Source of the DNA: Nonomuraea antri
Lineage (GTDB): Bacteria > Actinomycetota > Actinomycetes > Streptosporangiales > Streptosporangiaceae
DNA length: 64,000 nucleotides
Assembly: GCF_013283785.1 (NCBI RefSeq)
Contig: NZ_JABCPZ010000023.1
Location: 1-64,000, forward strand
Direction: 5' to 3'
The stretch's first letter is position 1. Each line of letters begins with the position of its first letter. A program made the position numbers and the translations under genes. Below the pieces are notes generated by a model that worked only from the letters and a program-made list of their open reading frames with translations, had not been told where the DNA came from and did not search any database. This document shows positions 33,464 to 47,344 of the stretch, piece by piece.

Positions 33464-34324
33464 ATGCTCGCCAGGACCAGGTCGCGCGGCCTACGCGTGG
33501 TGCTGTCGTTATCCGCGGCGTTGATCCTCACCGCCGCCACGCTGACCGTGGTGATCAGCCGTGAGCCGCCCGCGCCGGGGCGTGACTCCGGCCAGGAGTG
33601 GCGGCTGGTCTGGTCCGACGAGTTCGACGGCCCGGTCGGCCCGCCCGACCCGGCCAAGTGGAACCTGGTCGACGACCACCTCGGCTACAACAACGAGCTG
33701 GAGTACTACAGCCCGCGCAACGCCGCGCTCGACGGCCGCGGCAACCTGGTGATCACCGCCCGCGACGACGACGCGCACCTGCGCGACTGCAGCCCGCGCG
33801 TGTGCGCCGCCACCTCCGCCCGGCTGTTCACCGCGGGCAAGTTCGCGCACCGCTACGGCCGCCTGGAGGCCAGGCTCAAGCTGCCCGTCGGCCAGGGCAT
33901 GTGGCCCGCGTTCTGGGCCAGGCGCTCGCCCCAGGGCAGCGGACGCGGCGAGATCGACATCATGGAGTACCTCGGCCACGAGCCCGGCACCGTCCACGGC
34001 AACCTGCACGGCGAGCGCGGCTACGACGCGGTCAACTCATACCGGTTGCCCGGCGGCGCCAGGTTCTCCGACGACTTCCACGTCTTCGCCGCCGACTGGT
34101 ACCCCGACCGCATCTCCTTCCTGGTCGACGGGCAGGTCTACGCCACCGAGCACCGCTCCGCCGCGCCGCCCGGCGGCTGGGACTTCGACGTGCCGTACTA
34201 CCTGCTGCTGAACCTGGCCGTCGGCGGCGACTGGCCGGGCCCGCCGGACGACACCACCCGCTTCCCGCAGCGGCTCGTGGTGGACCACGTCCGCGTCTAC
34301 GCCGCTACCGGCCCGCCGCAGTGA
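33464..34324 (+). CDS. secreted GH16 endoglucanase/laminarinase-like
   Basis: A 286-residue secreted glycoside hydrolase. Signal segment about 10-31, then a family 16 jelly roll. Catalytic motif GEIDIMEY with nucleophile E163, D165 and acid/base E168; upstream LVWSDEFDG and NNELEYYSPRN, downstream WYPDRISFLVDG and NLAVGGDWPG are family landmarks. GH16 enzymes cleave beta-1,3 (and mixed) glucans or galactans. Codon 16 (33509-33511) is TTA, a rare codon in GC-rich actinomycetes that can make translation depend on the bldA-type tRNA. Its 3' end overlaps the convergent transferase-flippase gene by 20 bases. Confidence 0.92.
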   Translation: MLARTRSRGLRVVLSLSAALILTAATLTVVISREPPAPGRDSGQEWRLVWSDEFDGPVGPPDPAKWNLVDDHLGYNNELEYYSPRNAALDGRGNLVITARDDDAHLRDCSPRVCAATSARLFTAGKFAHRYGRLEARLKLPVGQGMWPAFWARRSPQGSGRGEIDIMEYLGHEPGTVHGNLHGERGYDAVNSYRLPGGARFSDDFHVFAADWYPDRISFLVDGQVYATEHRSAAPPGGWDFDVPYYLLLNLAVGGDWPGPPDDTTRFPQRLVVDHVRVYAATGPPQ

Positions 34325-36611
34325 CGCCCCGGCGGCCCGTGGCGAAGCTCGACACCAGCACGCCCACGCCGAGCAGCAGCGACAGCCCCTGGGCCAGCGC
34401 CCACCCGAGCGCCGCGGCCTCCAGCCCGACCGGCAGCAGCACCGCCACCAGCCCCAGCACCAGGACCGCGTTCACGCCGTTCATGAAGACGTAGGCGCCG
34501 GTGCGGTCCCTACTGATCAGGATCGTGTCCACCAGGTAGTTGCCGCCGCTGACCAGCGCCGCCAGGCCCAGGATCCGCAGCGTCTGCGCGGCCTGCGCCG
34601 AGTAGCCGGAACCGAACGCGGCCAGCAGGTACGGCGCCCCCAGCACGACCACCGCCACGGCGGGGACGAGCAGCCCGTAGACCCCCACCAGCGCCTTGCG
34701 CAGGTACCGGCGCAACGAGATCCGCTGCGCCTCGGCGAACAGCACCTGCGCGCTCGCCGAAGGGATGAAGTTGAGCACCGCCGCCACCTGGAAGGCGATC
34801 GCGAAGTACGCCGCCGCCTGCGGCCCGCGCACCGCCAGCACCTCCAGCGGCACCACCGTGCTCGGCAGCATGCCCAGCGCGGTCGCCACGTATCCGGCCG
34901 CGGAGAAGGGCAGGTACCTGCGCAGCAGCTCACCGGGCCGGGCCCGGCGCACCGCCCGGGTCAGCCGCGGCCACAGCGCGGCCCCGCCGAGCACGGTGGC
35001 CAGCAGCGTGCCGCCGCCGTAGGCGAGGATCAGGCCGTCGACGCCGAGCGGCACCAGCGGCACCGAGGCGCCCACCTTCACCGCGATGCCGGCCAGGTTC
35101 TTGGCCAGCAGCGGCCCGGTGCCCCTGGTCGCGATCAGCCCGGCGTCCAGCGTGCCGCCCACCGCGGTGACCATCACCAGGACGGTGACCATCGCGACCG
35201 TACCCGGCTGGCCGACCAGCTCCGGGCCGCCGGGCAGCAGCGGGGCCAGCACCAGCAGCGACGTCAGCGCCAGCGCCCCGCCGGCCGCGCCGACCGCGGT
35301 CACCGCCATGGCCGCGAGCCCGCGCGGATCGGCGGCGGTGGTGAGATGGCGCAACATCGTGGTGGGCAGGCCGAGCGCGGCGACGGTGGACAGCAGGTTC
35401 ACGCTCGCCGTCACGGCGGTCAGCCAGCCGACGGCCTCCACCGGGTAGTTGCGGGCGGCCAGCGTGAAGAACGCGAACCCGCCGGCCGCCAGCAGCACCG
35501 TGTTGACCAGCAGCAGGAACGTGCCCCGCACCAGCACGTTTCGCAGCAGCGAGGCCAGCCTGGAGTCCCCGGTCCCGGTGACGGTCGCGTAGGCGCCCCG
35601 GGTGGCGCGGGCGATCCTGGGCCAGCCCGGGCTCCTGACGTGCGCCAGCGCCGCGGCCGACATCGCCGCCAGCGTCGCCGCGTCGTACGCCACCGCCTTG
35701 CGCAGCGCCGCGCCCAGCCCGGCCACGCCGCCCTCGTAGCGGACCAGGGCCTCGGCGGGCAGCGCGGCCAGCTCGGGCAGCGCGGGCACGATCAGCGGCC
35801 GGCCGTGCCCGAGCGCGAGCAGCGCGCTGCCGCTGGTGGTGACCTCCCGGAACGGCAGCACCACCACGTCGGCGGCCGCGAACAGCGCCGCCACCTCGCT
35901 CTCGGGCACCTGGCCGAGCCGCAGCTCCACCCGGCGGTCGGCGGCCGCGGCCAGGCGGGCGGCGAGCGCGGGGTCCGGGCAGGACCCGGCCACCACCAGG
36001 CGCACCCCGGGCCAGTCGGGCAGCGCGGTGAACGCCGCCAGCAGGTCCTCCACCCCCTTGTACGGCTCGATCCGCCCGAAGAACAGGAACGTGCGCGGCC
36101 CAGGGGCCAGCCCGGGCGGCGGCAGCGGCGGCGCGGGGAACGGCCCGTGCGGGATGACGGCGGCCCGCGACGGGACCGCGCCCAGGGCGGCCAGCCGCTC
36201 CAGCGCCGACGAGTGATGCGCGATCACCAGGTCGCAGCGCCGCACCAGGGCGCGCCTGGCGGCCACGTCGTCGGCGAACACCTGCCGGTGCGGCAGCACG
36301 TTGTGCGCGGTCCACACCAGCCGCAGCCCGAGCAGCCGCACCACGGCGAGCACGACCGAGAACCAGAGCTGCGCCGGTCGCCGCGTCGCCGCGCCGCCCG
36401 GCAGCGCGAACTTCCACACCCAGTGCAGGTGCACGACCCTGGCCCCGCCCAGCCGCCGCACCGCCAGCTCGGCCGGCAGCAACACCAGGTTGAGCGTGTG
36501 CGAGAAGGTCAGCTCGCCCAGGTAACGCACCCGCACGCCGGACGCGCGCAGCTCGTCGTGCAGAAGCTCCTGGTACGGGTTGGAGTCACGGGGAAAGACC
36601 AGCACCTTCAT
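34305..36611 (-). CDS. GT4 glycosyltransferase fused to Wzx-like flippase
   Basis: A 768-residue fusion. Residues about 1-350 are a GT-B family 4 domain: VLVFPRDSNPYQELLHDEL, WTAHNVLPHR, FFGRIEPYKGVEDLLAAF and VLPFREVTTSGSALLALGHGRPLI. Residues about 357-768 are hydrophobic with about ten or more membrane spans, beginning LVRGTFLLLVNTVLLAAGGFAFFTLAARNYP, the polysaccharide-export (MOP/Wzx) pattern. The chain is continuous with no stop or frameshift signs. A single polypeptide would add a sugar on the inner face and flip the lipid-linked glycan. It is the last gene of the seven-gene operon; its ATG overlaps the GT2 stop by four bases. Confidence 0.85.
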   Translation of the reverse strand: MKVLVFPRDSNPYQELLHDELRASGVRVRYLGELTFSHTLNLVLLPAELAVRRLGGARVVHLHWVWKFALPGGAATRRPAQLWFSVVLAVVRLLGLRLVWTAHNVLPHRQVFADDVAARRALVRRCDLVIAHHSSALERLAALGAVPSRAAVIPHGPFPAPPLPPPGLAPGPRTFLFFGRIEPYKGVEDLLAAFTALPDWPGVRLVVAGSCPDPALAARLAAAADRRVELRLGQVPESEVAALFAAADVVVLPFREVTTSGSALLALGHGRPLIVPALPELAALPAEALVRYEGGVAGLGAALRKAVAYDAATLAAMSAAALAHVRSPGWPRIARATRGAYATVTGTGDSRLASLLRNVLVRGTFLLLVNTVLLAAGGFAFFTLAARNYPVEAVGWLTAVTASVNLLSTVAALGLPTTMLRHLTTAADPRGLAAMAVTAVGAAGGALALTSLLVLAPLLPGGPELVGQPGTVAMVTVLVMVTAVGGTLDAGLIATRGTGPLLAKNLAGIAVKVGASVPLVPLGVDGLILAYGGGTLLATVLGGAALWPRLTRAVRRARPGELLRRYLPFSAAGYVATALGMLPSTVVPLEVLAVRGPQAAAYFAIAFQVAAVLNFIPSASAQVLFAEAQRISLRRYLRKALVGVYGLLVPAVAVVVLGAPYLLAAFGSGYSAQAAQTLRILGLAALVSGGNYLVDTILISRDRTGAYVFMNGVNAVLVLGLVAVLLPVGLEAAALGWALAQGLSLLLGVGVLVSSFATGRRGVTAAGR

Positions 36612-37501
36612 CGGACGGCACGGCCCAGCAGTGAGGCGAGCCCGGCCAGCACGCCCGCGCCGTACAGCAGGTGGTCGGCCAGCACCCGCACCGGCCCGTT
36701 GCGCCGGTTGCGCCAGGCCGGCACCAGCAGCAGCAGCGGATAGAACGGGAACCACACGGTCAGCGGCAGTCCGAGCAGGAAGAGGGGATAGACCACCACC
36801 ATCGGCTCCCTGCGCAGCAGCAGCGCGCGGCGGGCGCGATGCTTGGCGTACAGCCGGGCGCGTGCCTTGCCGTAGACGAACGAGCGGCGCAACTGCCTGC
36901 GCGTGTCACCCCACTCGTGCGTGACGACCGCGTCGCCGGCGCTGCGGATGCGGTGCCCGGCGTCCTGGACGCGCCAGCTCAGATCCACGTCGGAGCCGTA
37001 GCCGAAGCTCTCGTCGAAGCCCGACACCCGGTCGAGCACCGCCCGGCGTAACGCCAGGTTGCCGGTGCCGCACTCGTGCAGGTAGCGGTCGGCGGCCCGG
37101 CGGCGGGCGTCGTGGTCGTAGAGGCTGTCGCGGCCCGCCGGCGCGGTGACCAGCCCGCACACCACGCTCTCGCCCTCGTCGAGCATCGGCGCGACGAGGT
37201 TGCGCAGCCAGTCGTCCTGGGGCAGGCAGCCGGCGTCGGTGAACACCACGATCTCGCCGGCGGCCGCGCGCACGCCCGCGTTGCGCTGGTGCGCGATCGA
37301 CACGCGCACTCCGGGCGGCGGCGTGTAGGCCGTCCAGCGCACGTGCGGGTGCGCGGCGGCGATGGCGTCGAGCCTGCCCCGCGAGGCGTCCACGACCACG
37401 ATCTCGTACGGGTGCCCGGCGGACTCGGCCGCCCGGGTGACGCCGTGGAGCGTGTCGTCGAGCTCGGGTTCGTCCTTGCTGACGATGACAATGGAGATCA
37501 T
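36608..37501 (-). CDS. GT2-family glycosyltransferase with membrane tail
   Basis: A 297-residue GT-A enzyme. It begins MISIVIVSKDEPELDDTL; the donor-site motifs VVDASRGRLDA, FTDAGCLPQDDW and GFDESFGYGSDVDLSWR (acceptor/catalytic region) are clear. One or two hydrophobic segments at the C-terminus (about 233-285) probably attach it to the membrane. ATG overlaps the DUF2206 stop by four bases and its own stop overlaps the next start, so it is translationally coupled on both sides. Sugar specificity unknown. Confidence 0.9.
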   Translation of the reverse strand: MISIVIVSKDEPELDDTLHGVTRAAESAGHPYEIVVVDASRGRLDAIAAAHPHVRWTAYTPPPGVRVSIAHQRNAGVRAAAGEIVVFTDAGCLPQDDWLRNLVAPMLDEGESVVCGLVTAPAGRDSLYDHDARRRAADRYLHECGTGNLALRRAVLDRVSGFDESFGYGSDVDLSWRVQDAGHRIRSAGDAVVTHEWGDTRRQLRRSFVYGKARARLYAKHRARRALLLRREPMVVVYPLFLLGLPLTVWFPFYPLLLLVPAWRNRRNGPVRVLADHLLYGAGVLAGLASLLGRAVR

Positions 37502-39846
37502 CGGTGGAACACCTTCGTGGCTCCGCTCGTGTACACGAGATCGTAGTGCGCCTCGAGGAAGGCGGTCGGGAACGCGTACAGGGCGAGCTGGTTGTCGAAC
37601 AGCGACCTGGCCCGGCCGACGGCCGTGTTTGTCCAGCTCGCGTACACCCAGGCCTTCTTGTCCAGGGTGTGCGGCGTGATGTCGGTGTGGATCCGCCGGC
37701 CGGGGCCGAGCTCGGCGAACAGCCGTAGCTGGGCGTACCTGTCGGCGTAGAGCCGGTCGGGCGAGTCGCCGATGGCGTCCTTCAGCCAGCGGGCTCCGGC
37801 CAGCTCGGCGGCGTACATGCAGTAGCGCTCGCAGTCCTCGCCGCGCGTGGTGAGGTGGGCCGCGCGCTCGCCGCCGAGCAGCGCGTTGTCCAGGCCGCTG
37901 CCGGCCACGAAGACGGCGACGACCGCCGCGCCGGCCAGCCCGGGCACCGGGCGGACGAGCCCGCGCAGCACCGGCGTCCACCGGCGGCGGCGCCGCGGCG
38001 GGCGGAGCGCGGCCGCCCTGACCCGGTGCAGCAGCCAGAACATCGCGACGGCGACCAGCGTCAGCGCCTGCAACTGGGCCCGGCTCTGGTTGTAGGCGGC
38101 CGACAGGGTGCCCGACAGCCGCAGCAGCACCAGCGCGCCCAGCATCGGCACGGCCAGCGCCCCGCACAGCCGCACCAGCCTGGACGAGCGCCGGCTCAGC
38201 GCCATCACCAGCGCGCCCACCAGGCCGAGCAGGTTCGCCAGCTGCTGGGCGAGCAGCACCCCCAGGTCGAGCGCCGTGCTCACCCCGGGGGCGAGCTTCC
38301 GCGGCGCCGGCACGCCCGCGTCGCCGAGGGTCCAGCGCGGGTCGTCGACGTCGGCCGCGGGCGTCACCGACGCCTTGGGCGGCCGGTACTTGAGCACCAC
38401 CCGCTTGGAGTACAGGTACGTCGAGATGCGGGTCACGTCGGTGCCGCGCAGGTAGGCGGCGACCAGGTTCCCCGCCGTGTCGGCCCCGGGCAGCAGCCGC
38501 AGGCCGTCGGCGCTCAGCGCGGTGCGGAACTCGCCGATGTTGGCCGTCGAGCCGGTGATCGGCACGTACCACAACACGCCGGCCAGCAGACCGGGCACCA
38601 GCGCCGCCACCACCGCGCGCGGCGCGACGCGCGGCCGCCGCGCCAGCCACGACACGCCCTGCACCACCAGCGCCCCGCCGAGCATCGCGGCGGTGAAGTA
38701 CGCGGTCGTGTAGTGCGAGACGACGATGCCCGCGCCGAACAGGCCGAGCAGCCCCGCCTTGGGCCACCTGGGCAGCCGGGAGTCCAGCAGCGCGCCGCAC
38801 AGCGCGGCGAACAGCAGCATGGCGATCTCCTGCCTGGCCAGCGCGGGGAACTGCTGGGCCAGCGCGCCCTGCGCCGTCACGAAGCCCGCCGCCGCGAACG
38901 CCCATCCCACCGGCACGAACCGGGTGGCCAGGTGGAAGATCGCGACGGGGAACATCGCGAAGATCGCCGGATAGACGAGCTTGAGCACCAGCACGACCGG
39001 CAGGCCGGTCAGCGCGTGCAGCTCGGCGGGCAGCACGGTGATGCTGAGCATCGCGCCGTAGGCGTCGGGGTGCGGCCCGGTCACCCAGATCCCGGACGTC
39101 ACGCTCTCCTGGGCGACGGCGTACTCGGAGGCGATGTCGAAGCCGTAGACCAGGTCGCCGCGCAGCGCGTACGACCACATCATGGCCAGCGCCACCGCGT
39201 ACAGCAGCACCGCCGAGCGCCCCCGGCCCAGCCGCCCGGCCAGGGCGATCCCGGCGGCCAGCACGAGCGCGCCGCAGGCGACGGCGGCGATCGCCACCGC
39301 CGGGCCGTGGCCGTGGTTGAGCCGCAGCGCCCCGGCGGCGGCCAGCAGCGGCAGCAGCAGCGGCAGCGCCAGCCACCCGGTCGCGGGCAGCGAACGCCAC
39401 GGGACGGCCGTGTCGGCCGGCGCCCGCACCCCGGCGAGCAGCAGCGCCAGGCAGACGAGCTGGAACCCGGCGAGCAGTGGGCCCGGCCGCAGCGGCGTCG
39501 CCGGGTCGAACGTGGCGCCGAACACCGCGTCGAGCACCGGCCCTGGCACCGCGCCGAGCAGCGGCACGAGCAGGGCCACCGCGAGCCCGGAGACCATGAG
39601 CACGATCAGCGAGGCGGCGGGCACGTACAGCGGGAACGCCGCCACCCTGGCCCCGGGCACCCGCAGCGCGCGCAGCAGCAGGCAGCCGGGCACGATCAGC
39701 AGCAACGGCACCAGCAGCAACTGGGCGGCCCACAGGTGACGAACCTGGGTCAGCCCGACGATCAGGGCGAGAGCCGCGCCGTACAGCAGCACCCGGCCGT
39801 CACGCTCGCGGGCCGTCGCCTGCCCGTCGCGCTCGGGAGCCGTCAC
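37498..39846 (-). CDS. DUF2206-like multi-pass membrane protein
   Basis: A 782-residue protein with about 14 or more predicted spans and a C-terminal extracytoplasmic part (about 660-782). The GTG start at 39846 overlaps the upstream GT2 stop (GTGA). The segment DIASEYAVAQESVTSGIW, the NxxLSI-like AYGAMLSITVLPAELHAL, LVLKLVYPAIFAMFPV and ALARQEIAMLLF match the DUF2206 pattern. DUF2206 proteins are distantly like GT39/polymerase-type GT-C membrane enzymes; role here may be polymerisation or lipid-linked sugar transfer (inference). The final soluble domain has two cysteines and aromatic patches. Confidence 0.75.
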   Translation of the reverse strand: MTAPERDGQATARERDGRVLLYGAALALIVGLTQVRHLWAAQLLLVPLLLIVPGCLLLRALRVPGARVAAFPLYVPAASLIVLMVSGLAVALLVPLLGAVPGPVLDAVFGATFDPATPLRPGPLLAGFQLVCLALLLAGVRAPADTAVPWRSLPATGWLALPLLLPLLAAAGALRLNHGHGPAVAIAAVACGALVLAAGIALAGRLGRGRSAVLLYAVALAMMWSYALRGDLVYGFDIASEYAVAQESVTSGIWVTGPHPDAYGAMLSITVLPAELHALTGLPVVLVLKLVYPAIFAMFPVAIFHLATRFVPVGWAFAAAGFVTAQGALAQQFPALARQEIAMLLFAALCGALLDSRLPRWPKAGLLGLFGAGIVVSHYTTAYFTAAMLGGALVVQGVSWLARRPRVAPRAVVAALVPGLLAGVLWYVPITGSTANIGEFRTALSADGLRLLPGADTAGNLVAAYLRGTDVTRISTYLYSKRVVLKYRPPKASVTPAADVDDPRWTLGDAGVPAPRKLAPGVSTALDLGVLLAQQLANLLGLVGALVMALSRRSSRLVRLCGALAVPMLGALVLLRLSGTLSAAYNQSRAQLQALTLVAVAMFWLLHRVRAAALRPPRRRRRWTPVLRGLVRPVPGLAGAAVVAVFVAGSGLDNALLGGERAAHLTTRGEDCERYCMYAAELAGARWLKDAIGDSPDRLYADRYAQLRLFAELGPGRRIHTDITPHTLDKKAWVYASWTNTAVGRARSLFDNQLALYAFPTAFLEAHYDLVYTSGATKVFHR

Positions 39847-40874
39847 CCGCCCCGCCCTTCGAAGCCGCCGCGGAAGGCCCACAGGCCGTGCAGGAAGCCC
39901 AGGTTCTCGCCCGTCTCCTGGGCGAGCTTGACGTAGGGGTCGGCGAGCGATTCGAGCCCGCCGCCCGTCACGGCGTGCCGAACCCCGGCGGGGTAGAGCA
40001 GCAGCGGCAGCAGCACCGGCACGACCGCGAGCACCGGCGATGCCACCGCCGTCAGCGCGAGCAGCGCGACCAGCACCGGCCAGGGGAACAGCGTGGGCCG
40101 CACCCCCGGCCACTTCAGGTACTGCATCGCGGCCCCGCGCCCGTAGGCCAGGCTGCGCCGCAGCAGGCCGCGCAGGGTGGGCACGCAGTGGTGCAGGACC
40201 GGCGCGTCGGGCACGAAGACCAGGCGTCCCGCGCCGTGGCGCCGCAGCCGGCGCGACAGGTCCTCCTCCTCGGCCGCGTGGCGGAAACGCGGGTCGAAGC
40301 CGCCCGCCGCCAGCAGCCGGTCGCGCCTGAACGACATGTTCCCGCCGCTGAAGGCGTAGACGTCGCGCCGCCCGTTCCTGGGCGCGCGCGGCCGCCACTG
40401 CCGCCGCAGGTACAGCCAGAGCCGGTACGGCAGCGCCGCGCTGACCGTGAGTTCGAGCTCCAGCGGCTGGTGCCGGTTGTCGCGTTCGAGGAAGCGCGCC
40501 AGGAAGCCCGCGCCGGTCGCCGGGACGATCGGGCCGCCGACCCCGGCGACGTCGTCCCCGGTGTAGCCGGACAGCAGGGTCTCCGCCCAGCGGGGGCCCG
40601 GCTCGCAGTCGTCGTCCAGGAAGGCCACGACCGGCGCGGCCGCCGTCCGCAGCCCGGTGTCGCGGGCCGCCGCCGCGCCCCGGTTGACCTCGTGGCCGAC
40701 CACCGTCGCGCCGCCGGCGCGGGCGACGTCCGAGGTGGCGTCGGTTGAGGCGTCGTCCACGACGATGATCTCCAGGTCGGCGCGCACGGTCTGGACGGCC
40801 AGCGCGCCGAGGGTCAGGCCGAGCCGGGCCGAGCCGTTGTAGGAGCAGATGACGACCGACAGGCTAGGGGACAT
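39843..40874 (-). CDS. GT2-family glycosyltransferase
   Basis: A 343-residue GT-A enzyme with VVICSYNGSARLGLTLGAL, EIIVVDDASTDAT, AFLDDDCEPGPRW (metal-binding DDD) and GGFDPRFRHAAEEEDLSRRL. After residue 240 there are one or two membrane segments (LFPWPVLVALLALTAV and following). It overlaps the GT4 gene upstream by 11 bases and DUF2206 downstream by four. Such enzymes extend lipid-linked saccharides at the inner membrane face. Confidence 0.9.
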   Translation of the reverse strand: MSPSLSVVICSYNGSARLGLTLGALAVQTVRADLEIIVVDDASTDATSDVARAGGATVVGHEVNRGAAAARDTGLRTAAAPVVAFLDDDCEPGPRWAETLLSGYTGDDVAGVGGPIVPATGAGFLARFLERDNRHQPLELELTVSAALPYRLWLYLRRQWRPRAPRNGRRDVYAFSGGNMSFRRDRLLAAGGFDPRFRHAAEEEDLSRRLRRHGAGRLVFVPDAPVLHHCVPTLRGLLRRSLAYGRGAAMQYLKWPGVRPTLFPWPVLVALLALTAVASPVLAVVPVLLPLLLYPAGVRHAVTGGGLESLADPYVKLAQETGENLGFLHGLWAFRGGFEGRGG

Positions 40875-42006
40875 GACGCCCCGGCACGGTCGAGCGGGCG
40901 GCCGCCAGGTAGAGGTCGATCGTCCGGGTCACGACGGTGTCCAGGTCGGTCCCCCGGTCGCGCGGCACGGCGGTGTCGTCCCCGCCGCCGCTGTCGAGGA
41001 AGTCGGCGATCGTCTCGGCCAGGCGGCCGGGGGAGCCGGGGGGAACCGTCCAGCGGGAGCCGTCGAACAGCTCGCCGAGCCCGCCCGCCGTGCTCGCGAT
41101 GACCGGCACGCCGTAGGCCGCCGCCAGGTTGGCCACCCCGCTCTGCTCGGCGTCGCGGTAGGGCAGCACCACGGCCTCGGCGGCCTCGAACCAGGCGGCG
41201 ATGTCGCCGTCGGGCACGTACCCGGTGAAGACCAGCCGGTCGCGCACCCCGGCGGCGCGCGCCAGGCGGCGCACCACGGCCCGGTGCGCGTGGTCGCGGG
41301 CCTCGAACAGGCGGAACGGCCCGTGCCTGCGGCGTACCGCGCCGGCGACCACCACGCGCACGTCACGCAGCGTCTCGCGCGGCAGCAGGCCCAGCGCGCG
41401 CACCAGGTCGTCGAGCCCCTTGCTGACGTGGATGTGGCCGAAGGCGAGCAGCACGCGGGCGTCGCCGAGCCCGAAGCGCATGCGCAGCGCGGCGGCCGAG
41501 CCGGTGGCGCGCGGCGGCGGCACGGAGAAGTGCGGGATGACCACGCCCTTGCCGGCGCCGCCCAGCTCGCTCAGCGTGCCCGCGGCCGCCCGCGTGTGGA
41601 CCACGACCCGGTCGCAGCTCGCCACGATCCGCCGGTACAGCGCGCGGCCCGGGCCACGCAGCAGCGCGGTGTCACGGCTGACCTCGTGCAGGGTGGCCAC
41701 CACCGGTACGTCCACGCCGGCGGCCAGCCAGCGGGTCACGGCCGCCACCCGGGCGCCGAACGCGGGCACGGCGAACTGCACGTGCACCACGTCGGGACGG
41801 AACCCGGACACCGCCCGGCGCAGCGGCTCGGCCGAGCCGGGTCCGCGCAGCGCGCCGACGACCTCTTCCGGCGCGTCCGGGTGCGGGCGGGCGGCGACCA
41901 CCGCCACCTCGTGGTCCCGCTCACGGACGGCGTGCGCGAGCACCCGCATGTAGACACCGATGCCGTCGCGGGCCGGGGGATAGGGGCCGACGAACAGGAT
42001 CCTCAT
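40864..42006 (-). CDS. GT4-family glycosyltransferase
   Basis: A 380-residue GT-B enzyme starting MRILFVGPYPPARDGIGVYMRVL. Donor-domain motifs: LLAFGHIHVSKGLDDLVRAL and VVLPYRDAEQSGVANLAAAYGVPVIAS, where a serine-glycine pair follows the usual acidic position. Its ATG overlaps the stop of the next GT4 gene upstream by four bases. Part of the coupled operon 43624-34305. Substrate not predictable. Confidence 0.9.
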   Translation of the reverse strand: MRILFVGPYPPARDGIGVYMRVLAHAVRERDHEVAVVAARPHPDAPEEVVGALRGPGSAEPLRRAVSGFRPDVVHVQFAVPAFGARVAAVTRWLAAGVDVPVVATLHEVSRDTALLRGPGRALYRRIVASCDRVVVHTRAAAGTLSELGGAGKGVVIPHFSVPPPRATGSAAALRMRFGLGDARVLLAFGHIHVSKGLDDLVRALGLLPRETLRDVRVVVAGAVRRRHGPFRLFEARDHAHRAVVRRLARAAGVRDRLVFTGYVPDGDIAAWFEAAEAVVLPYRDAEQSGVANLAAAYGVPVIASTAGGLGELFDGSRWTVPPGSPGRLAETIADFLDSGGGDDTAVPRDRGTDLDTVVTRTIDLYLAAARSTVPGRHVP

Positions 42007-43154
42007 GGCAACATCGCCTTCACCACGTGCGCGGCGATCGATTCGAGCGCGTACTCGCCGACCCACGACTCACGCTCGGGCTCGTCGCCGTCGGGCGCGT
42101 CGAGCGCCCGCGCGAGCGCCGCCGCGAACGCGTCCAGGTGGTGGTCGCAGACGATCCCGCGCCGGGTCCGCAGCACCAGATGCTGGGCCAGGTTGTCGCG
42201 TGCCGAGGTCGTCACCACGGGCACGCCGCAGGCGATCGCTTCGAGCACGGCGATGCCGAACCCCTCGCGCGTGGACGGGAAGGCGAACACCCGGGCCGCC
42301 TTGACCAGCGCGTACACGTCCTTCTGCTCGCTGACGTCGTGCCGGAACTCCACCGCGTGCGCGATGCCCAGCCGCTCGGCCTCGCGGTGCAGCGCGTCGC
42401 GCTCCGGGCCGTCGCCGATGATCCGGCAGCTGACCGCGCGGCCGGTGGCGTGCAGCCGGGCGACGGCGGCCAGCAGCAGGTCCAGGCCCTTGTGCCGCAT
42501 CAGCCTGCTGACCACGACCAGGTCGGTGCGCCGCTCGTCCGGGGATGCCTGTTCCACCTGGGCGAGGTCGATGCCGTTGGGCGCGATGGTGATCCGCGCC
42601 CGCTCGCCGAGCTCCGCGCGCAGCCGCATGGCGGTCTGGGGCGAGACGGCGATGATGCGGTCGGGCGCGCGCATCGCCAGCCGCTCGATCCACCACGCGG
42701 GACGCCAGCGCCCGCCCATGCTCTCGCGCCAGTACTCCGGCCCCCACACCTCGTGCCAGGTGGCGACCAGCGGCTTGCGGCGCAGGGTCGCCACCAGGCG
42801 TAAGGGCAGCAGGTGCAGGAACGGGATCTGGTCGACGTTGAGCACGTCGAAGCGGTGGCGCAGCAGCCGCAGGCAGGCCGCCGCGAACGTCAGCGCCTGC
42901 CAGACGGAACGCACGCCCTGCCGGTACATCGGCAGCAGGCGGGAGATCGCGTGGAAGGTGATGCCGCCTTCCGTGCGCACCCGGGGGCCGTCCCACCAGC
43001 GCATGGTGAACACGTGCACGTCGGCGTACGGCGCCAGGTGCGGGCCGAGCTCGTGGTAGCGCATCTCCCTGCCGCCGAAGCTGTAGGGATGGATGGCGTC
43101 GGTGACCAGGGCCACGATCGGCCGCTTCCCCCCGTGGAACACCGGCTGGCTCAT
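42003..43154 (-). CDS. GT4-family glycosyltransferase
   Basis: A 383-residue GT-B enzyme. ATG 43154 starts MSQPVFHGGKRPIVALVTDAIHPYSFGG, the usual N-terminal glycine-rich site. WHEVWGPEYWR and APNGIDLAQVEQA lie mid-protein; the C-terminal donor region shows VVSRLMRHKGLDLLL and FPSTREGFGIAVLEAIACGVPVV with the EGFGIxxxE catalytic-site motif. It starts five bases after the exported-protein gene and overlaps the following GT4 start. Confidence 0.92.
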   Translation of the reverse strand: MSQPVFHGGKRPIVALVTDAIHPYSFGGREMRYHELGPHLAPYADVHVFTMRWWDGPRVRTEGGITFHAISRLLPMYRQGVRSVWQALTFAAACLRLLRHRFDVLNVDQIPFLHLLPLRLVATLRRKPLVATWHEVWGPEYWRESMGGRWRPAWWIERLAMRAPDRIIAVSPQTAMRLRAELGERARITIAPNGIDLAQVEQASPDERRTDLVVVSRLMRHKGLDLLLAAVARLHATGRAVSCRIIGDGPERDALHREAERLGIAHAVEFRHDVSEQKDVYALVKAARVFAFPSTREGFGIAVLEAIACGVPVVTTSARDNLAQHLVLRTRRGIVCDHHLDAFAAALARALDAPDGDEPERESWVGEYALESIAAHVVKAMLP

Positions 43155-43159
43155 CCGGC

Positions 43160-43624
43160 CTACCCCTCGTCGATGTCGGCCGAGCAGACGGCCCGGTGGG
43201 TGATGGCCTGGCCCCCGGCCAGCTCGACCCTGATGGTGATCGGTCCCGGCGCGCACAGCGCCTTGGTCGGCGGCGTGATCGTCACGGACTGGCCGTCGGC
43301 CAGCGTCACGCGCCCGTTCGCGACGGCCCGGGTGCGGCCGGACTCGACGAGCCGTACCGACCAGGCGTGCTCGCGCTGCCGGCCGGTGACGTTGCGGATC
43401 GTGAAGGCGGGCGGCACCAGGAACGAGGTGGCGGGCACCCGCCCGGGCAGCGCCGTGGGCGTGGCGAAGGCCAGCTCGGTGTACCCGGCGGGCGCGCCGG
43501 CCAGGCCGGCCGCGAGGAGCAGGTCACGCCCCTGTTCGGTCTGCGCGCCCAGCCCGGCCGCGACGACCATGACGAGAACGACGGCAGCCGTTGACGAGTT
43601 AAGGCTGGGGAAAAATCGCGTCAT
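43160..43624 (-). CDS. small exported protein, first gene of the polysaccharide operon
   Basis: A 154-residue protein with an N-terminal signal or anchor (about 11-29) and a beta-rich extracytoplasmic part. I do not recognise it securely. YTELAFATPTALPGR, FLVPPAFTIRNVTG and the C-terminal Cys pair (about 123 and 147) give it the look of a single immunoglobulin-like domain, and it faintly recalls the soluble end of DUF1616 proteins that accompany archaeal and bacterial glycosylation loci. Location suggests an accessory or glycan-binding role outside the membrane. Confidence 0.6.
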   Translation of the reverse strand: MTRFFPSLNSSTAAVVLVMVVAAGLGAQTEQGRDLLLAAGLAGAPAGYTELAFATPTALPGRVPATSFLVPPAFTIRNVTGRQREHAWSVRLVESGRTRAVANGRVTLADGQSVTITPPTKALCAPGPITIRVELAGGQAITHRAVCSADIDEG

Positions 43625-43656
43625 GTAGGGCGTGACTTATCCATTGTTGCGAATAG

Positions 43657-43695
43657 GACGACTGATCCTAATGCACTTCAGGGGAAATTTGTCAC
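43657..43695 (-). promoter_or_regulatory. candidate promoter of the polysaccharide operon
   Basis: On the minus strand GTGACA (43695-43690) and TAGGAT (43670-43665) are 19 bases apart, in an AT-rich 154-base gap between the GH16 gene and the operon. Start would fall about 35 bases before the first ATG. Spacing is long, so this is tentative. Confidence 0.35.
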
Positions 43696-43778
43696 TTTGT
43701 ATGACTGATGGTGCAAATGTTATGAAGGACCGTTCCAATCGGACATTTGGCTGTTTATCCGGCTAGGAACTGCGGAAA

Positions 43779-44702
43779 TCAGCCGCGCCCGATCTGCCGG
43801 TACACCCGCACCCAGTCGACCACCATCCGGGCGGGAAAGCGGGTCGTCGCGTTCGGGTTCCCCACCCAGCCGCCGCCCACCTGCAGGTTGAGAATCAGGT
43901 AGAACGGCTTGTCGAACGGCCAGCCCGGGTAGCGGGGGTACTGGGCGTACGGCTCGCCGTCCACCCACCAGGTGATGCTCTCCGGCGTCCAGTCGACGCC
44001 GTAGACGTGGAAGCCCGCGTCCAGCCGGTCCGGCAGGTAGACCTTGCCGCCGCCCTTGCGGTCCTTGGAGTGCGTATAGCCGCGGACCAGGCGCGGCTCG
44101 TGGCCCCGGTTCTCGACGATGTCGATCTCGCCGTACGTGGCCGAGCCGGACCGGCCCGCATCGACGCGCTTGAGCCAGAACGCCGGCCAGAGCCCCTGGC
44201 CGAGCGGCAGTTTGATGCGGGCGGCGAACCTGCCGTACGCCTGGGCGAAGCTCGTCCTGGTCTCCAGCCTGGCGGAGCTGTAGCGGCACGGGCCGTACCA
44301 GCAGGGGGTGGCCGGGGCCGCGGCCCCGGTGCGCTGGGCGGAGATGACCAGGTGGCCTGAGCCGTCGAGCGCGGCGTTGGACGGGCTGTAGTAGTGCAGC
44401 GCCTTCCTGTTCGACCAGGCGGTGCCGGTCAGCGCGTCCCACTTGGCAGGGGTGCCGCGCCCGGCGAACTCGTCCGACCAGCTCAGCTTCCACCGCACGG
44501 CGGGCAGCGCGAGCGGCGGCGGCGCGATCGACTGCAGCGGGGCGGGCGCGCTCGGCGGCCGGACGGGGGCCGCCTCGCCCAGGCTGCGCACCCCGGCCGC
44601 GCTGATCGCCAGCACGGTGACGCAGGTGCCGATCGCCAGGGCCCAGGAACGTGAACGGCCGCGGCCGTCGGCCGCCGGACTTCGTTTCGTCCCGCTTCCC
44701 AT
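43779..44702 (-). CDS. secreted GH16 glycosidase
   Basis: A 307-residue exported enzyme: basic start, membrane segment about 19-38, Pro-rich linker to 68, then a GH16 jelly roll. Catalytic motif GEIDIVENRG with E192, D194 and E197; LSWSDEFAG, HYYSPSNAAL, WWVDGEPYAQYP and LILNLQVGGGWVG are family landmarks. Two Cys (134, 139) may form a local disulfide. GGAAG lies nine bases before the ATG. It is upstream of, and codirectional with, the polysaccharide operon, and a paralogue of the GH16 gene at 33464. Confidence 0.92.
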   Translation of the reverse strand: MGSGTKRSPAADGRGRSRSWALAIGTCVTVLAISAAGVRSLGEAAPVRPPSAPAPLQSIAPPPLALPAVRWKLSWSDEFAGRGTPAKWDALTGTAWSNRKALHYYSPSNAALDGSGHLVISAQRTGAAAPATPCWYGPCRYSSARLETRTSFAQAYGRFAARIKLPLGQGLWPAFWLKRVDAGRSGSATYGEIDIVENRGHEPRLVRGYTHSKDRKGGGKVYLPDRLDAGFHVYGVDWTPESITWWVDGEPYAQYPRYPGWPFDKPFYLILNLQVGGGWVGNPNATTRFPARMVVDWVRVYRQIGRG

Positions 44703-44764
44703 AAATAATGACTTCCGGCGAGGTTCCGTCCTGGCCGGGGGAGAATACCAAAGGGAGAGACGCA

Positions 44765-47245
44765 GTGACCGGAGGTGGCTGGAAGGGCGGGGCGGTCGAG
44801 CCGGATGGGCCGTCCGGTCAACACGAGCGCATTTCCCAGCCCTCGCTGCCGCCGACCACGGAGTTGACCGATCCCGGGCCCGTTTCCGGCTCCGGCCGCC
44901 TTTGGGCGGCCACCGACCCGGTGCGCGCGGCCGAGCGCAAGAGGTTCCGCTCGCTGCTGATCGGCGGGGTGTCGGCGGTCGTCGCGGTGCTCGTGGCGGG
45001 CGGCGTGCTGGTGGCCACGCGGAACAGCGGCGAGACGCCGGCCGCGGAACTGGCCGGCAACCTGTTCGCGGCCGGCCCTGCGGGCAGCCCCGACGGACGT
45101 CAGCGCGAGCTCAACGGGGTGGCCGCGCTGGGCGGCACGGTGGTGATCGCGGGCGGCGAGGACGTCGACTCCGGCTACCGCACCGAGTTCTTCGCCTCCA
45201 AGGACGCCGGACGGACCTTCGCCCAGGCCCCGGTGCGCACCGCCAAGGGCGAGCCGCCCGCGGCCGGCGAGGTGCCCAGGCATCTCGCCGCGGGCCCGGG
45301 CGCCTGGGTGGCGCTCGGCGAGCGGATGGACCGGGGCGCGTCGGGGTCGCCGCCGGGAGTGCGGCAGGCGTCCCGCGGCACGGTGGTCTGGACGAGCGCC
45401 GACGGCGCCTCCTGGACCCGCCAGCCCGACGCCACCGCCGGGCTCGCGTTCGGCCCCCGCGACCGGGTCGCCGACGTCGCCTGGACCGGCGACGGCTTCA
45501 CCGCCGTGGGCCGGACCTCGGAGAAGGGCGACTTCACCGACGCCGCCCCCGTGGTGTGGCTCTCGCGCGACGGCCGCAGCTGGGAGCGGCGGGCCGGCTG
45601 GCGGCTGCACCCGCCCACCGGCGGCACCCTGGCGCTGACCGACGTGGCCGCCGTCAAGGACGCCATCGTGGTGCGCGGCGAGAGCTCGATCAAGCCGTAC
45701 GACGTCACCTGGCGCTCCACCGACGCCGGCGACACCTGGCAGGCGTTCGCGGTGCCGGGCACGTCGGACGAGCCGGAACTGACCCTGGCCGCCACCGCGA
45801 CGACCATCCTCGCGGTACGCGGGGAGTCCGGCCACGCCGTCACCTACACCTCCCCCGACGGCATGCGCTGGACCACCGCGGCGAAGATCGAGGCGGCCGG
45901 CTACCGCGGTCTGCTGCGGCTGACCGCCACCGCCGAGGCCGCGGTGGCCGCGGTCGAGACCGACGCCGGGGTGCGGCTGCTGCGCAGCGCCGACGGCCGC
46001 TCCTGGCAGCCCGTGGGCGCGAATCCGATCAGCGCCCAGGTCCGCGACACCGCCTCCGTCTCGGGCCACACGGTCGCCGTCGGCGCCGACACCGCGGCCG
46101 GCGGCTCCGGCGCACTGCTCGCGGTACGCGACAAGTCCGGCAAGGACGTGCCCAGCGGCGTGCCCAACCCCACCGGCAGCGGCCGGGTGGTCGACGCCCT
46201 CGGCACCGCCGGAGAACGCGTGGTCGCCGTCGGCGGCGCCGACGGCGACGCGGCCGTCTGGTCCTCGGCCGACGGCGCGGACTGGCGGCGCGCGGCCGAC
46301 CGGCACAACGCCCTGGCCGGGCCGGGCCGCCAACGGCTCACCGACGTCACGCCCGGCATCGCCGGCTGGCTGGCCGTCGGCTTCAGCGGCCAGTCGCCGG
46401 CCCGCCCGCTGGTCGTCACCTCGGCCGACGGCGAGAGCTGGCAGCCGGCCGCCGCCCAGGCGCTGCCCCCCACCGGCTCGACCCCGCCGATCCCCCGAGG
46501 AGTCGCCGCCAACCCGGACGGCTACGTGATCGTGGGCGAGGACGGCTTCGGCGCGGGCACCTGGTGGTCACCCGACCTCAAGACCTGGGAACGCGGCATC
46601 CCGGCGGGCAAGGACAACCTGGCCGGCACGGAGACGACCAAACGCTGGATGAACGCCGTCACCAGCGGCCTGTTCGGCTACGTGGCCGCGGGCGGCGTGA
46701 CCGACCCGAACGCCTACGGCGGCGTCTACGTGCGCCGTCCGACCGTGTGGATCTCGCCGGACGGCCGCAAGTGGTCGCTGCTGCGGCTGCCGATCCCGGC
46801 CGGGGTGAACGAGGGCTGGTTGTCCCACATCGCCTCGACCGACGACCTCGTGGTCACCGCGGGCACCGCCGTGACCGGCAACGGGGTGGGCACGGCCGCG
46901 TTCGGTTACGCCTCGCACGACGGCGGACGGAGCTGGCAGCAGATCACGCTGCCGGTGGCGGCGGGAGAGCAGTCGAGCGTCACCGCCGTGGCCGCGACCC
47001 CGCGCGGGTTCGTGGTGGCGGGCACCGTGGGCAGGCCGGGCGACGTGGTCGTCTGGACCTCGGCCGACGGCCGCATCTGGAAGGCCGCGCAGCCGTCGGG
47101 CACCGGGCTGTCCGGCCCGGGCGACCAGCGGCTGACCGCGTTCACCACGGTGGACGGCGACCTCGTGGGCGTCGGCTCGACCGCGACGGGCCAGGGCGAC
47201 GAGCCGATCGTGTGGCGCCGCCCGCTGTCCTCCGCCGCCCCGTGA
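44765..47245 (+). CDS. membrane-anchored extracellular beta-propeller (Asp-box repeats)
   Basis: An 826-residue single-pass protein. GTG 44765 is preferred: GGGAGA lies seven to eight bases upstream, whereas the earlier ATG 44708 has no ribosome site and abuts the divergent start. Cytosolic part about 1-62, membrane span about 64-86, then roughly 740 extracellular residues. At least ten repeats of the type S-x-D-G-x-x-W (TSADGASWTR, SRDGRSWERR, SPDGMRWTT, SADGRSWQP and others) are Asp-box/BNR turns of sialidase-like propellers. No sialidase arginine triad is evident, so binding or scaffolding is likelier than catalysis. Divergent from the GH16 gene with 62 bases between. Confidence 0.8.
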   Translation: MTGGGWKGGAVEPDGPSGQHERISQPSLPPTTELTDPGPVSGSGRLWAATDPVRAAERKRFRSLLIGGVSAVVAVLVAGGVLVATRNSGETPAAELAGNLFAAGPAGSPDGRQRELNGVAALGGTVVIAGGEDVDSGYRTEFFASKDAGRTFAQAPVRTAKGEPPAAGEVPRHLAAGPGAWVALGERMDRGASGSPPGVRQASRGTVVWTSADGASWTRQPDATAGLAFGPRDRVADVAWTGDGFTAVGRTSEKGDFTDAAPVVWLSRDGRSWERRAGWRLHPPTGGTLALTDVAAVKDAIVVRGESSIKPYDVTWRSTDAGDTWQAFAVPGTSDEPELTLAATATTILAVRGESGHAVTYTSPDGMRWTTAAKIEAAGYRGLLRLTATAEAAVAAVETDAGVRLLRSADGRSWQPVGANPISAQVRDTASVSGHTVAVGADTAAGGSGALLAVRDKSGKDVPSGVPNPTGSGRVVDALGTAGERVVAVGGADGDAAVWSSADGADWRRAADRHNALAGPGRQRLTDVTPGIAGWLAVGFSGQSPARPLVVTSADGESWQPAAAQALPPTGSTPPIPRGVAANPDGYVIVGEDGFGAGTWWSPDLKTWERGIPAGKDNLAGTETTKRWMNAVTSGLFGYVAAGGVTDPNAYGGVYVRRPTVWISPDGRKWSLLRLPIPAGVNEGWLSHIASTDDLVVTAGTAVTGNGVGTAAFGYASHDGGRSWQQITLPVAAGEQSSVTAVAATPRGFVVAGTVGRPGDVVVWTSADGRIWKAAQPSGTGLSGPGDQRLTAFTTVDGDLVGVGSTATGQGDEPIVWRRPLSSAAP

Positions 47246-47268: not shown

Positions 47269-47344
47269 ACCGGCGATCAGCGCAGCCCGACGCCCCAGAG
47301 CCGGAACACCGGCGATCAGCGCAGTCCGACGCTCCAGAGCCGGA
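47269..47344. repeat. 37-bp repeat duplicating the 3' end of the kinase gene
   Basis: Copies at 47269-47305 and 47308-47344, period 39 bases, two mismatches. The second copy contains the last seven codons region and stop (minus strand TGA at 47318-47316) of the WD40 kinase; the first is downstream of the gene and repeats that stop at 47279-47277. The 39-base period keeps frame. Confidence 0.85.

Follow-up and report, generated by a model that had tools for sequence, protein, structure and literature searches.

A glycosyltransferase–flippase fusion in a conserved cassette for a predicted exported glycan of Nonomuraea

Gene content of the cassette

Within the window, by which we mean the whole stretch of 64,000 nucleotides of DNA of the soil bacterium Nonomuraea antri that was analysed, a seven-gene operon is located on the minus strand from position 43624 to 34305, with all gene starts re-derived from the sequence. 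It opens with g1 (43160..43624, 154 aa), which encodes a DUF1616-like protein, followed by two GT4 glycosyltransferases (g2, 42003..43154, 383 aa, PF00534 with E 7e-33; g3, 40864..42006, 380 aa, PF13692 with E 1.2e-21), a GT2 glycosyltransferase (g4, 39843..40874, 343 aa, PF00535 with E 3.4e-24), a DUF2206-like membrane protein (g5, 37498..39846, 782 aa), a second GT2 glycosyltransferase (g6, 36608..37501, 297 aa, PF00535 with E 1.2e-12) and g7 (34305..36611, 768 aa), a fusion of GT4 and flippase, for which the ATG at 36611 was taken as start and not the upstream GTG of the program-listed open reading frame. From g1 to g7 the junctions consist of a gap of 5 nt and then overlaps of 4, 11, 4, 4 and 4 nt, in agreement with the original prediction that six of the seven genes overlap by 4–11 bases or lie 5 bases apart. 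The AT-rich intergenic region in front of g1 (43625..43778, minus strand) is, judging from its sequence, likely to be the promoter of the operon; it is partly conserved in an alignment of eight Nonomuraea loci, which shows conserved blocks and no nameable consensus.

The gene set of the predicted operon could be retained but its boundaries were too narrow, as two flanking genes for GH16 glycanases had been left out. GH16a (43779..44702, minus strand, 307 aa) and GH16b (33464..34324, plus strand, 286 aa) match PF00722 with scores of 87.9 and 87.2 bits (cut-off 22; E 7.2e-25 and 1.2e-24) and contain the sequences EIDIVE and EIDIME, respectively, in accordance with the GH16 motif E-x-D-x-x-E. Both are probably exported as judged by eye, GH16a because of an N-terminal hydrophobic stretch. 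GH16b is convergent with g7, overlaps its end by 20 nt and is present in 8 of 8 other Nonomuraea loci examined, and GH16a is found at the equal place in those loci of Nonomuraea and the related genus g39 that reach so far. Together with the GH16 genes at its two ends, the cassette kept in Nonomuraea amounts to nine genes. The dN/dS values of the nine genes against three relatives are 0.21–0.50.

As predicted, no match to a Wzy polymerase, a chain-length regulator or a ligase family is listed among the nine cassette proteins (for g2 among the best 25 of 45 families), and Pfam revealed no initiating phosphoglycosyltransferase in the cassette. On other contigs the genome has a single PF04932 (Wzy_C) gene as well as two genes for PF02397 phosphoglycosyltransferases, the latter on C199 and C540. 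No initiating enzyme was found in the Nonomuraea loci. Two outlying cassettes, L037 and L075, carry an AglJ/PpgS-like GT2 directly upstream of g1. The two copies are 68% identical to each other and have AglJ as their best NCBIfam match, with 103.8 and 98.9 bits against a curated cut-off of 325; a search for this GT2 at E 1e-10 gave no match in the window, nor did it in the cassette loci of Nonomuraea and g39.

The fusion protein and its relatives

The last gene of the operon had been predicted to encode a GT4 domain and a Wzx-like domain in one chain, and Pfam, alignment and fold matches all agree with this. Residues 1–336 (35604..36611) form the GT4 domain with a GT-B fold, with the Pfam matches lying within residues 81–280 (PF13692, E 2.4e-13; PF00534, E 6.3e-10). 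It is followed by a linker at residues 337–357 (35541..35603), as seen in the alignment of the 14 fused proteins, among which the linker measures 12–63 aa and is not conserved, and by the MOP-superfamily (Wzx-like) flippase domain at residues 358–768 (34308..35540). Pfam gave no match for the flippase half of the window g7 itself, and PF01943 (Polysacc_synt) is matched by seven of the nine members of the flippase alignment (best E 1.6e-9). The AlphaFold model of g7 (mean pLDDT 75.5) shows 12 long helices in the flippase domain, and a PDB search with this model found GT4 enzymes (3c4q, E 1.9e-9; MshA fold) as well as the MATE transporter 6fhz of the MOP superfamily (E 3.7e-7, TMt 0.67). According to relatives and model the C-terminal half belongs to the MOP superfamily, and transport of a lipid-linked glycan is predicted for it.

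GT4 enzymes usually possess an EX7E motif in their catalytic site. At this place the GT4 domain of g7 reads PFREVTTSGSALLAL, with a hydrophobic residue replacing the second glutamate, and in the alignments the g39 loci as well as L037 have R or Q in place of E256, both as judged by eye. As the second glutamate is missing, GT4 activity of g7 is not assured; the atypical motif leaves its membership in GT4 at the level of Pfam intact.

The fusion is encoded in a single frame in 14 genomes including our own, namely nine Nonomuraea, four of genus g39 and Actinokineospora auranticolor; this number combines 6 of 59 genomes from one search, 11 of 297 from another and A. auranticolor, with repeats counted once. 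At E 0.001 the fusion is matched by 51 of the 59 genomes, mostly through paralogues of the GT4 or the flippase, which match over one half. The cassette of N. gerenzanensis, whose chromosome, with no genes listed there, was the only match in plasmid searches, shows identities equal to those of G264/L054 and was therefore not counted again. With a model of the fusion, the family-level search gave 2 of 120 genomes, our own and G233, the latter as two pieces, and the phylum-level search at E 1e-30 matched 24 of the 396 genomes, with a full-length match in our own genome only, both halves at separate neighbouring places in G397 and one half covered by the remaining matches. In both G233 and G397 the GT4 and the flippase are unfused and the stop and start of the two genes overlap. 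As some carriers of the cassette are unfused, the fusion is not required; all nine Nonomuraea and four genus g39 genomes in which both halves were found keep the fused frame. The flippase tree, which has long branches, needs at least two changes between the fused and the unfused state, and the fusion may have arisen twice, or once with a later split. A GT4–Wzx fusion was not seen in the titles and abstract openings of the papers listed by the literature searches, which leaves its absence from print unproven.

The membrane protein g5 and its probable partner g1

The window g5 reaches 23.3 bits for DUF2206 (PF09971) and is below the cut-off of 35.6, but the family is matched by 10 of 10 members of the g5 alignment with E values of 0.1 or lower, the best being 1.9e-15, and of five distant homologues four are above the cut-off, with the one from L076 giving no match. 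Another distant homologue (L078) matches PMT_2 slightly below the cut-off (25.2 versus 26.1 bits, E 2.1e-5). In Pfam no PMT_2 match was obtained for the ten closer homologues and no STT3 match for g5 or its homologues, and when g5 was compared by hhalign with alignments of PMT_2 and Wzy_C, no probability exceeded about 1%. The AlphaFold model of g5, based on seven sequences, was unusable for a fold comparison (pLDDT 37.6). Invariant in 15 g5 homologues are G235, D237, E241, R338, Q339, H378 and Y379, with the window g5 reading GFDIASE. The idea that a DUF2206 protein takes the place of a Wzy or GT-C enzyme is modified here, in that the DUF2206-like g5 may, as suggested by the PMT_2 match below cut-off, belong to the GT-C type itself and serve as a polymerase or transferase.

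For g1 the window protein has no match to DUF1616 (PF07760), which matches four of its 11 homologues with E 5e-7 as the best value, and a hydrophobic stretch is visible by eye at its N-terminus. As g1 is present at 16 of 19 g5 loci, its conserved neighbourhood suggests that it is probably a partner of g5. In L047 a GH16 gene shares 4 nt with g1 and g5 comes next, giving a separate block of proteins that presumably act on the outside, and the 19 kb locus L076 combines a g5 homologue with a GT4 and has neither g1 nor a flippase. The literature searched contains a mention of DUF1616 and no paper naming DUF2206. It is a rather speculative idea, and one that we would not expect to hold, that the two families together make up an unrecognised bipartite enzyme which polymerises or transfers glycans on the outer face of the membrane, is spread over several distant lineages of actinobacteria and may be shared with archaea, with the fusion being a checkpoint for finished units only.

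Proposed pathway and alternatives

We consider it fairly probable that the cassette serves to make an exported glycan, most likely a polysaccharide, by way of lipid-linked oligosaccharides. The GT4 enzymes g2 and g3 and the GT2 enzymes g4 and g6 would elongate a polyprenyl-bound sugar in the cytoplasm, with the initiating enzyme presumably being encoded outside the cassette. The GT4 domain of g7 would attach one of the late sugars, probably the last, before the MOP domain of this protein flips the completed unit, which would link completion to export physically; we infer this direct coupling of sugar addition and flipping from the fusion. On the outside, g5, possibly with a GT-C fold, and the membrane-anchored g1 might polymerise the units or transfer them to an acceptor, and the GH16 pair might cut or remodel the product and perhaps set the chain length where Wzz would do so elsewhere. 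Of this picture, the analysis shows the gene order, the fusion, the conservation and the families of the glycosyltransferases, the flippase half and the GH16 enzymes, and predicts the carrier, the sequence of sugars, the coupling, the catalysis by g5, its interaction with g1, the product and the part played by GH16. In favour of this pathway we counted the fusion in 14 genomes, the unfused overlapping pairs, the GH16 synteny, the co-occurrence of g1 and g5, the block in L047, the AglJ-like GT2, the sub-threshold PMT_2 match, the fold matches of g7, the dN/dS values and the parallels to the imp cluster described below. Counted against it were the lack of direct proof for a polymer, the negative hhalign result and poor model of g5, the incomplete EX7E motif, the lack of an initiating enzyme in the Nonomuraea loci, the non-universal fusion and the composition of L076.

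The closest described system, similar in its gene content, is the imp cluster of Actinoplanes missouriensis for the sporangium-matrix polysaccharide. It consists of seven genes for three GT4, one GT2, the Wzx-type flippase ImpC, ImpD and ImpE, with ImpE being an 11-helix Alg6/Alg8-like membrane protein and proposed polymerase, ImpD a small membrane protein for which the authors speculate about a Wzz-like or assisting role, and the adjoining gimB encoding a glycoside hydrolase that degrades the matrix (PMC12691653, PMC13390465). As this cluster follows a similar logic, calling the route non-canonical was too strong. There, no GT domain is described for ImpC whereas g7 carries a GT4, a figure legend gives the adjacent hydrolase as a GH5 and not a GH16, and ImpD has five predicted helices whereas g1 looks like one anchored domain. 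The canonical Wzx/Wzy pathway shares several cytoplasmic glycosyltransferases and a MOP flippase with our cassette, which differs in the DUF2206 protein in the polymerase slot, in the GT4 fused to the flippase and in showing no listed Wzy, Wzz/PCP or initiating PGT match (for g2 among the best 25 of 45 families). Glycosyltransferases joined to membrane domains are found elsewhere, as in the haloarchaeal AglD, which is a GT2 and not a GT4 like g7. AglD also unites glycosyltransferase and flippase domain in one protein, but its flippase domain is of the MprF type (COG0392) and not of the MOP superfamily (PMC5898192). In Brucella WadA a cytoplasmic GT domain is likewise fused to a membrane domain acting on the opposite face, which is an O-antigen ligase instead of a flippase (PMC9938171).

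That g7 is an artefact of assembly or a frameshift joining two genes could be suspected in a draft genome of 580 contigs, but the same stop-free frame is found in 13 other genomes, so that this reading is refuted for all practical purposes. A neutral joining of neighbouring genes, with two independent parts and no coupling, would agree with the unconserved linker of variable length and with the overlapping unfused pairs that serve a similar cassette in two relatives; it has a real chance of being correct, even if we do not expect it, as the fused frame is kept in all 13 Nonomuraea and g39 genomes with both halves and the state changes in the tree may reflect a twofold fusion, although a single fusion with a later split may explain them too. 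A more distant parallel are PelF and PelG, a GT4 and a MOP-type membrane protein that act together without being fused, work in a synthase pathway along with further Pel components, are proposed to synthesise and export the chain and differ in family from g7. If g7 worked similarly, its GT4 domain would polymerise in the cytoplasm, its MOP domain would export the growing chain and g5 would only decorate it. Besides the shared pairing, a weak PelG match in one of nine g7 relatives (E 0.055) and 34.7 bits of g2 for the PelF model (cut-off 100) point in this direction, but g2 matches many GT4 models, g7 shows no match to PelF (NF038011) in NCBIfam at E up to 0.1, nothing in the cassette lies above any Pel cut-off (for g2 among the best 25 of 45 families) and the four further glycosyltransferases fit a unit-by-unit assembly, making this very improbable.

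It could also be possible, although we regard it as unlikely, that g5 acts like an oligosaccharyltransferase and transfers the flipped oligosaccharide en bloc to an acceptor, either a protein or a polymer of the wall, in the manner of archaeal N-glycosylation, in which case neither Wzy nor Wzz nor a ligase would be needed. The AglJ-like GT2 upstream of g1 in two loci together with DUF1616 points to an archaeal-type glycosylation, one of the proteins listed as N-glycosylated in Haloferax is a DUF1616 protein (PMC8241124), and no polymerase family match is listed for the cassette (for g2 among the best 25 of 45 families). However, two neighbouring GH16 glycanases suggest a polymeric product, g5 has no STT3 match in Pfam and the AglJ scores are far under the curated cut-off.

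For the lipid-linked-oligosaccharide pathway that we favour, the transferase–flippase cassette is a real addition to a known pathway type. The conserved DUF1616–DUF2206 pair allows a concrete hypothesis on the function of two uncharacterised families, and the natural GT–flippase fusion together with the unfused pair in relatives offers a clean test system for how Wzx-type flippases admit only completed units.

The coupled operon and its GT4–flippase fusion

The seven genes g1 to g7 span 43624-34305 of the minus strand and meet at junctions of +5, -4, -11, -4, -4 and -4 nt; re-deriving the coordinates confirmed the overlaps of 4-11 nt and the 5-nt gap of the original prediction. Pfam assigned g2 and g3 to the GT4 and g4 and g6 to the GT2 glycosyltransferases and located a GT4 domain in the first part of g7. 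The operon is flanked by the glycanase genes GH16a (44702-43779, minus strand) and GH16b (33464-34324, plus strand), the latter being convergent and sharing 20 nt with the end of g7. The AT-rich stretch at 43625-43778 carries a consensus block GGAACGGTCC, exact in four of eight aligned loci, and a second block CATTAGGATCAACCGTCCCAT, which is a consensus only with an exact copy in none of the eight aligned rows; both are possible candidates for a regulator or sigma-factor site.

The fusion of a GT4 and a Wzx-like flippase in g7 is real and conserved. It was found complete and in a single open frame in six of 59 genomes (36 of them from the genus, own genome included); in three of the six (G014, G019 and G023) the halves match as separate pieces of one frame with a longer linker. 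An order-level search (E 1e-40) gave matches in 12 of 297 genomes, eleven being full-length in a single frame and one (G233) in two pieces. Altogether the fused frame is present in 14 different genomes, namely nine Nonomuraea (including the one studied here), four of the related genus g39 and Actinokineospora auranticolor, bearing out the original prediction of both domains in one chain; named Nonomuraea records are N. turkmeniaca, N. thailandensis, Nonomuraea sp. PA05 and G32, [Actinomadura] parvosata and N. gerenzanensis. The cassette (operon and both GH16 genes) is rare and patchy in its distribution, with 6/36 genomes of the genus and 2/120 of a family sample, one of these two being unfused. 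The linker between the halves is unconserved (12-63 aa), the MOP-type profile PF01943 matched the C-terminal half in seven of nine relatives, and in the predicted structure (pLDDT 75.5) both halves have fold matches in the PDB. GT4 enzymes usually carry an EX7E motif, and as its second glutamate is missing in g7 according to a by-eye reading of the alignments, the activity of this domain is only putative.

Unfused relatives have the two genes either overlapping or separate. In G233 (locus L047) the ATG of the flippase shares the A of the GT4 stop codon TGA (12176-12178), in G397 (L075), from another family of the phylum, the flippase starts with GTG at 12755 and overlaps the GT4 stop by 4 nt, and L077, L078 and L079 encode the flippase in a gene of its own close to g5. 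Thus, the fusion is probably derived from two coupled genes. At least two changes between the fused and unfused states are required by the tree built on the flippase half, and the fusion may have arisen twice, or once with a subsequent split, the tree being compatible with either.

Genomic context of the cassette

GH16a, g1 to g7 and the convergent GH16b are syntenic across the sufficiently long Nonomuraea loci (L025 begins at g4 owing to a contig edge). Three of the g39 loci show GH16a and g1 to g7 in identical order and the fourth, L049, is cut by the contig end; GH16b was not found within the available g39 flanks. The upstream flank beyond 44.8 kb was matched in six of the seven other Nonomuraea genomes reaching past GH16a (L026, L027, L028, L029, L053 and L054, with L052 as the exception), and this common neighbour suggests a conserved position on the chromosome and not a recent transfer. 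The DNA kept beside the cassette in these six holds an 845-aa ORF (44708-47245) divergent from GH16a; at 47316-49562 an ORF reads as protein kinase-like, with WD40-like repeats after it. For the nine cassette genes dN/dS was 0.21-0.50 against three relatives (L027, L029 and L054). In [Actinomadura] parvosata the GT4 gene g3 (L029:5523-6664) matches in two different frames, which suggests a frameshift or sequencing error in this copy.

The DUF1616-like g1 and the membrane protein g5

While g1 itself gave no Pfam match, DUF1616 was matched by 4 of 11 g1 homologues (best E 5e-7). Of 19 g5 loci 16 also carry g1, the others being L076, where it is missing, and the contig-cut L025 and L049; this is a co-occurrence count and no independent discovery, as the g1 profile was partly built from these loci. 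In L047 g1 shares 4 nt with a GH16 gene and is followed by g5 after about 20 nt, provided the chosen start codons are right, while the glycosyltransferases and the flippase form a separate run. This split suggests two functional blocks, one for assembly and flipping inside the cell and one for processing outside by GH16, g1 and g5.

The g5 family is rare yet spread, as a phylum search (E 1e-30) found it in 8/396 genomes (own included) from five genera. Across 15 homologues 35 residues are invariant, including G235, D237 and E241 (GFDIASE here), R338, Q339, H378 and Y379. The distant homologue in L078 matches PMT_2 over residues 305-420 (E 2.1e-5; 25.2 bits, cut-off 26.1), corresponding by alignment to about residues 290-399 of g5. 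This would place the D/E motif ahead of the segment, in a stretch where GT-C enzymes have acidic catalytic residues. PMT_2 was absent from ten closer g5 members in Pfam, direct profile comparison of g5 with the PMT_2 and Wzy_C sets gave no match, and the structure model was of unusable quality for this question. Membership of g5 in the GT-C enzymes is no more than plausible. The original prediction put a DUF2206 protein where a polymerase or GT-C enzyme would be expected; in Pfam g5 is a sub-threshold DUF2206 match (23.3 bits, cut-off 35.6), and it may be a GT-C enzyme itself.

A putative carrier-based pathway

No phosphoglycosyltransferase was found in the cassette. Elsewhere the own genome has two PF02397 genes (contigs C199 and C540) and one Wzy_C gene (C199). 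Directly upstream of g1, L037 and L075 each carry a GT2 (68% identity between the two), for which the top NCBIfam model is AglJ (E 1.1e-29 and 3.2e-28, both under the curated cut-off), ahead of PpgS. Weaker relatives (26-30% identity) lie within open frames of g2-like GT4s in L078 (15254-17365, 703 aa) and L079 (13231-15276, 681 aa), apparently another fusion in the same pathway. The presence of AglJ-like GT2s in these outlying loci hints at initiation on polyprenyl phosphate. At E 1e-10 none was found in the window or the Nonomuraea and g39 cassette loci; a GT2 on contig C296 of the own genome shows 25-30% identity. Two further own-genome loci hold such genes beside neighbours judged from ORF readings. 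In L114 (C540) the phosphoglycosyltransferase gene is accompanied by what read as CysD/CysN-type genes, a sulfotransferase and a flippase, a set reminiscent of the wps-1 cluster for a sulfated polysaccharide in Actinoplanes. L115 (C199) is a second polysaccharide cluster with the Wzy_C gene and, by ORF reading, two chain-length-regulator-like proteins and a flippase.

Our best reading is that an oligosaccharide, some five or six sugars long going by the glycosyltransferase count, would be assembled on a polyprenyl carrier, completed and then flipped by g7, polymerized or transferred outside by g5 with g1, and trimmed by the GH16 enzymes. That the last sugar is coupled to flipping we infer from the fusion alone. 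The main rival would be an en-bloc transfer as in archaeal N-glycosylation. The absence of any known polymerase family speaks for such a transfer, the pair of conserved glycanases for a polymer. Among known systems, similar parts are described for the imp cluster of Actinoplanes missouriensis, to which the synthesis of the sporangium matrix polysaccharide is attributed: a proposed polymerase of Alg6/Alg8-like type, a small membrane protein with a speculated Wzz role and an adjoining gene for a hydrolase that digests the matrix (PMC12691653, PMC13390465). AglD (PMC5898192) and WadA (PMC9938171) also join a glycosyltransferase and a membrane domain in one protein, yet their partner families differ from those of g7. 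Neither a published GT4–MOP fusion nor a mention of DUF2206 was found in the literature searched, and within it the cassette with the fusion is apparently undescribed, being a variant on a known pathway type. The finding would gain in value if the DUF1616–DUF2206 pair did represent a new class of polymerase or transferase.
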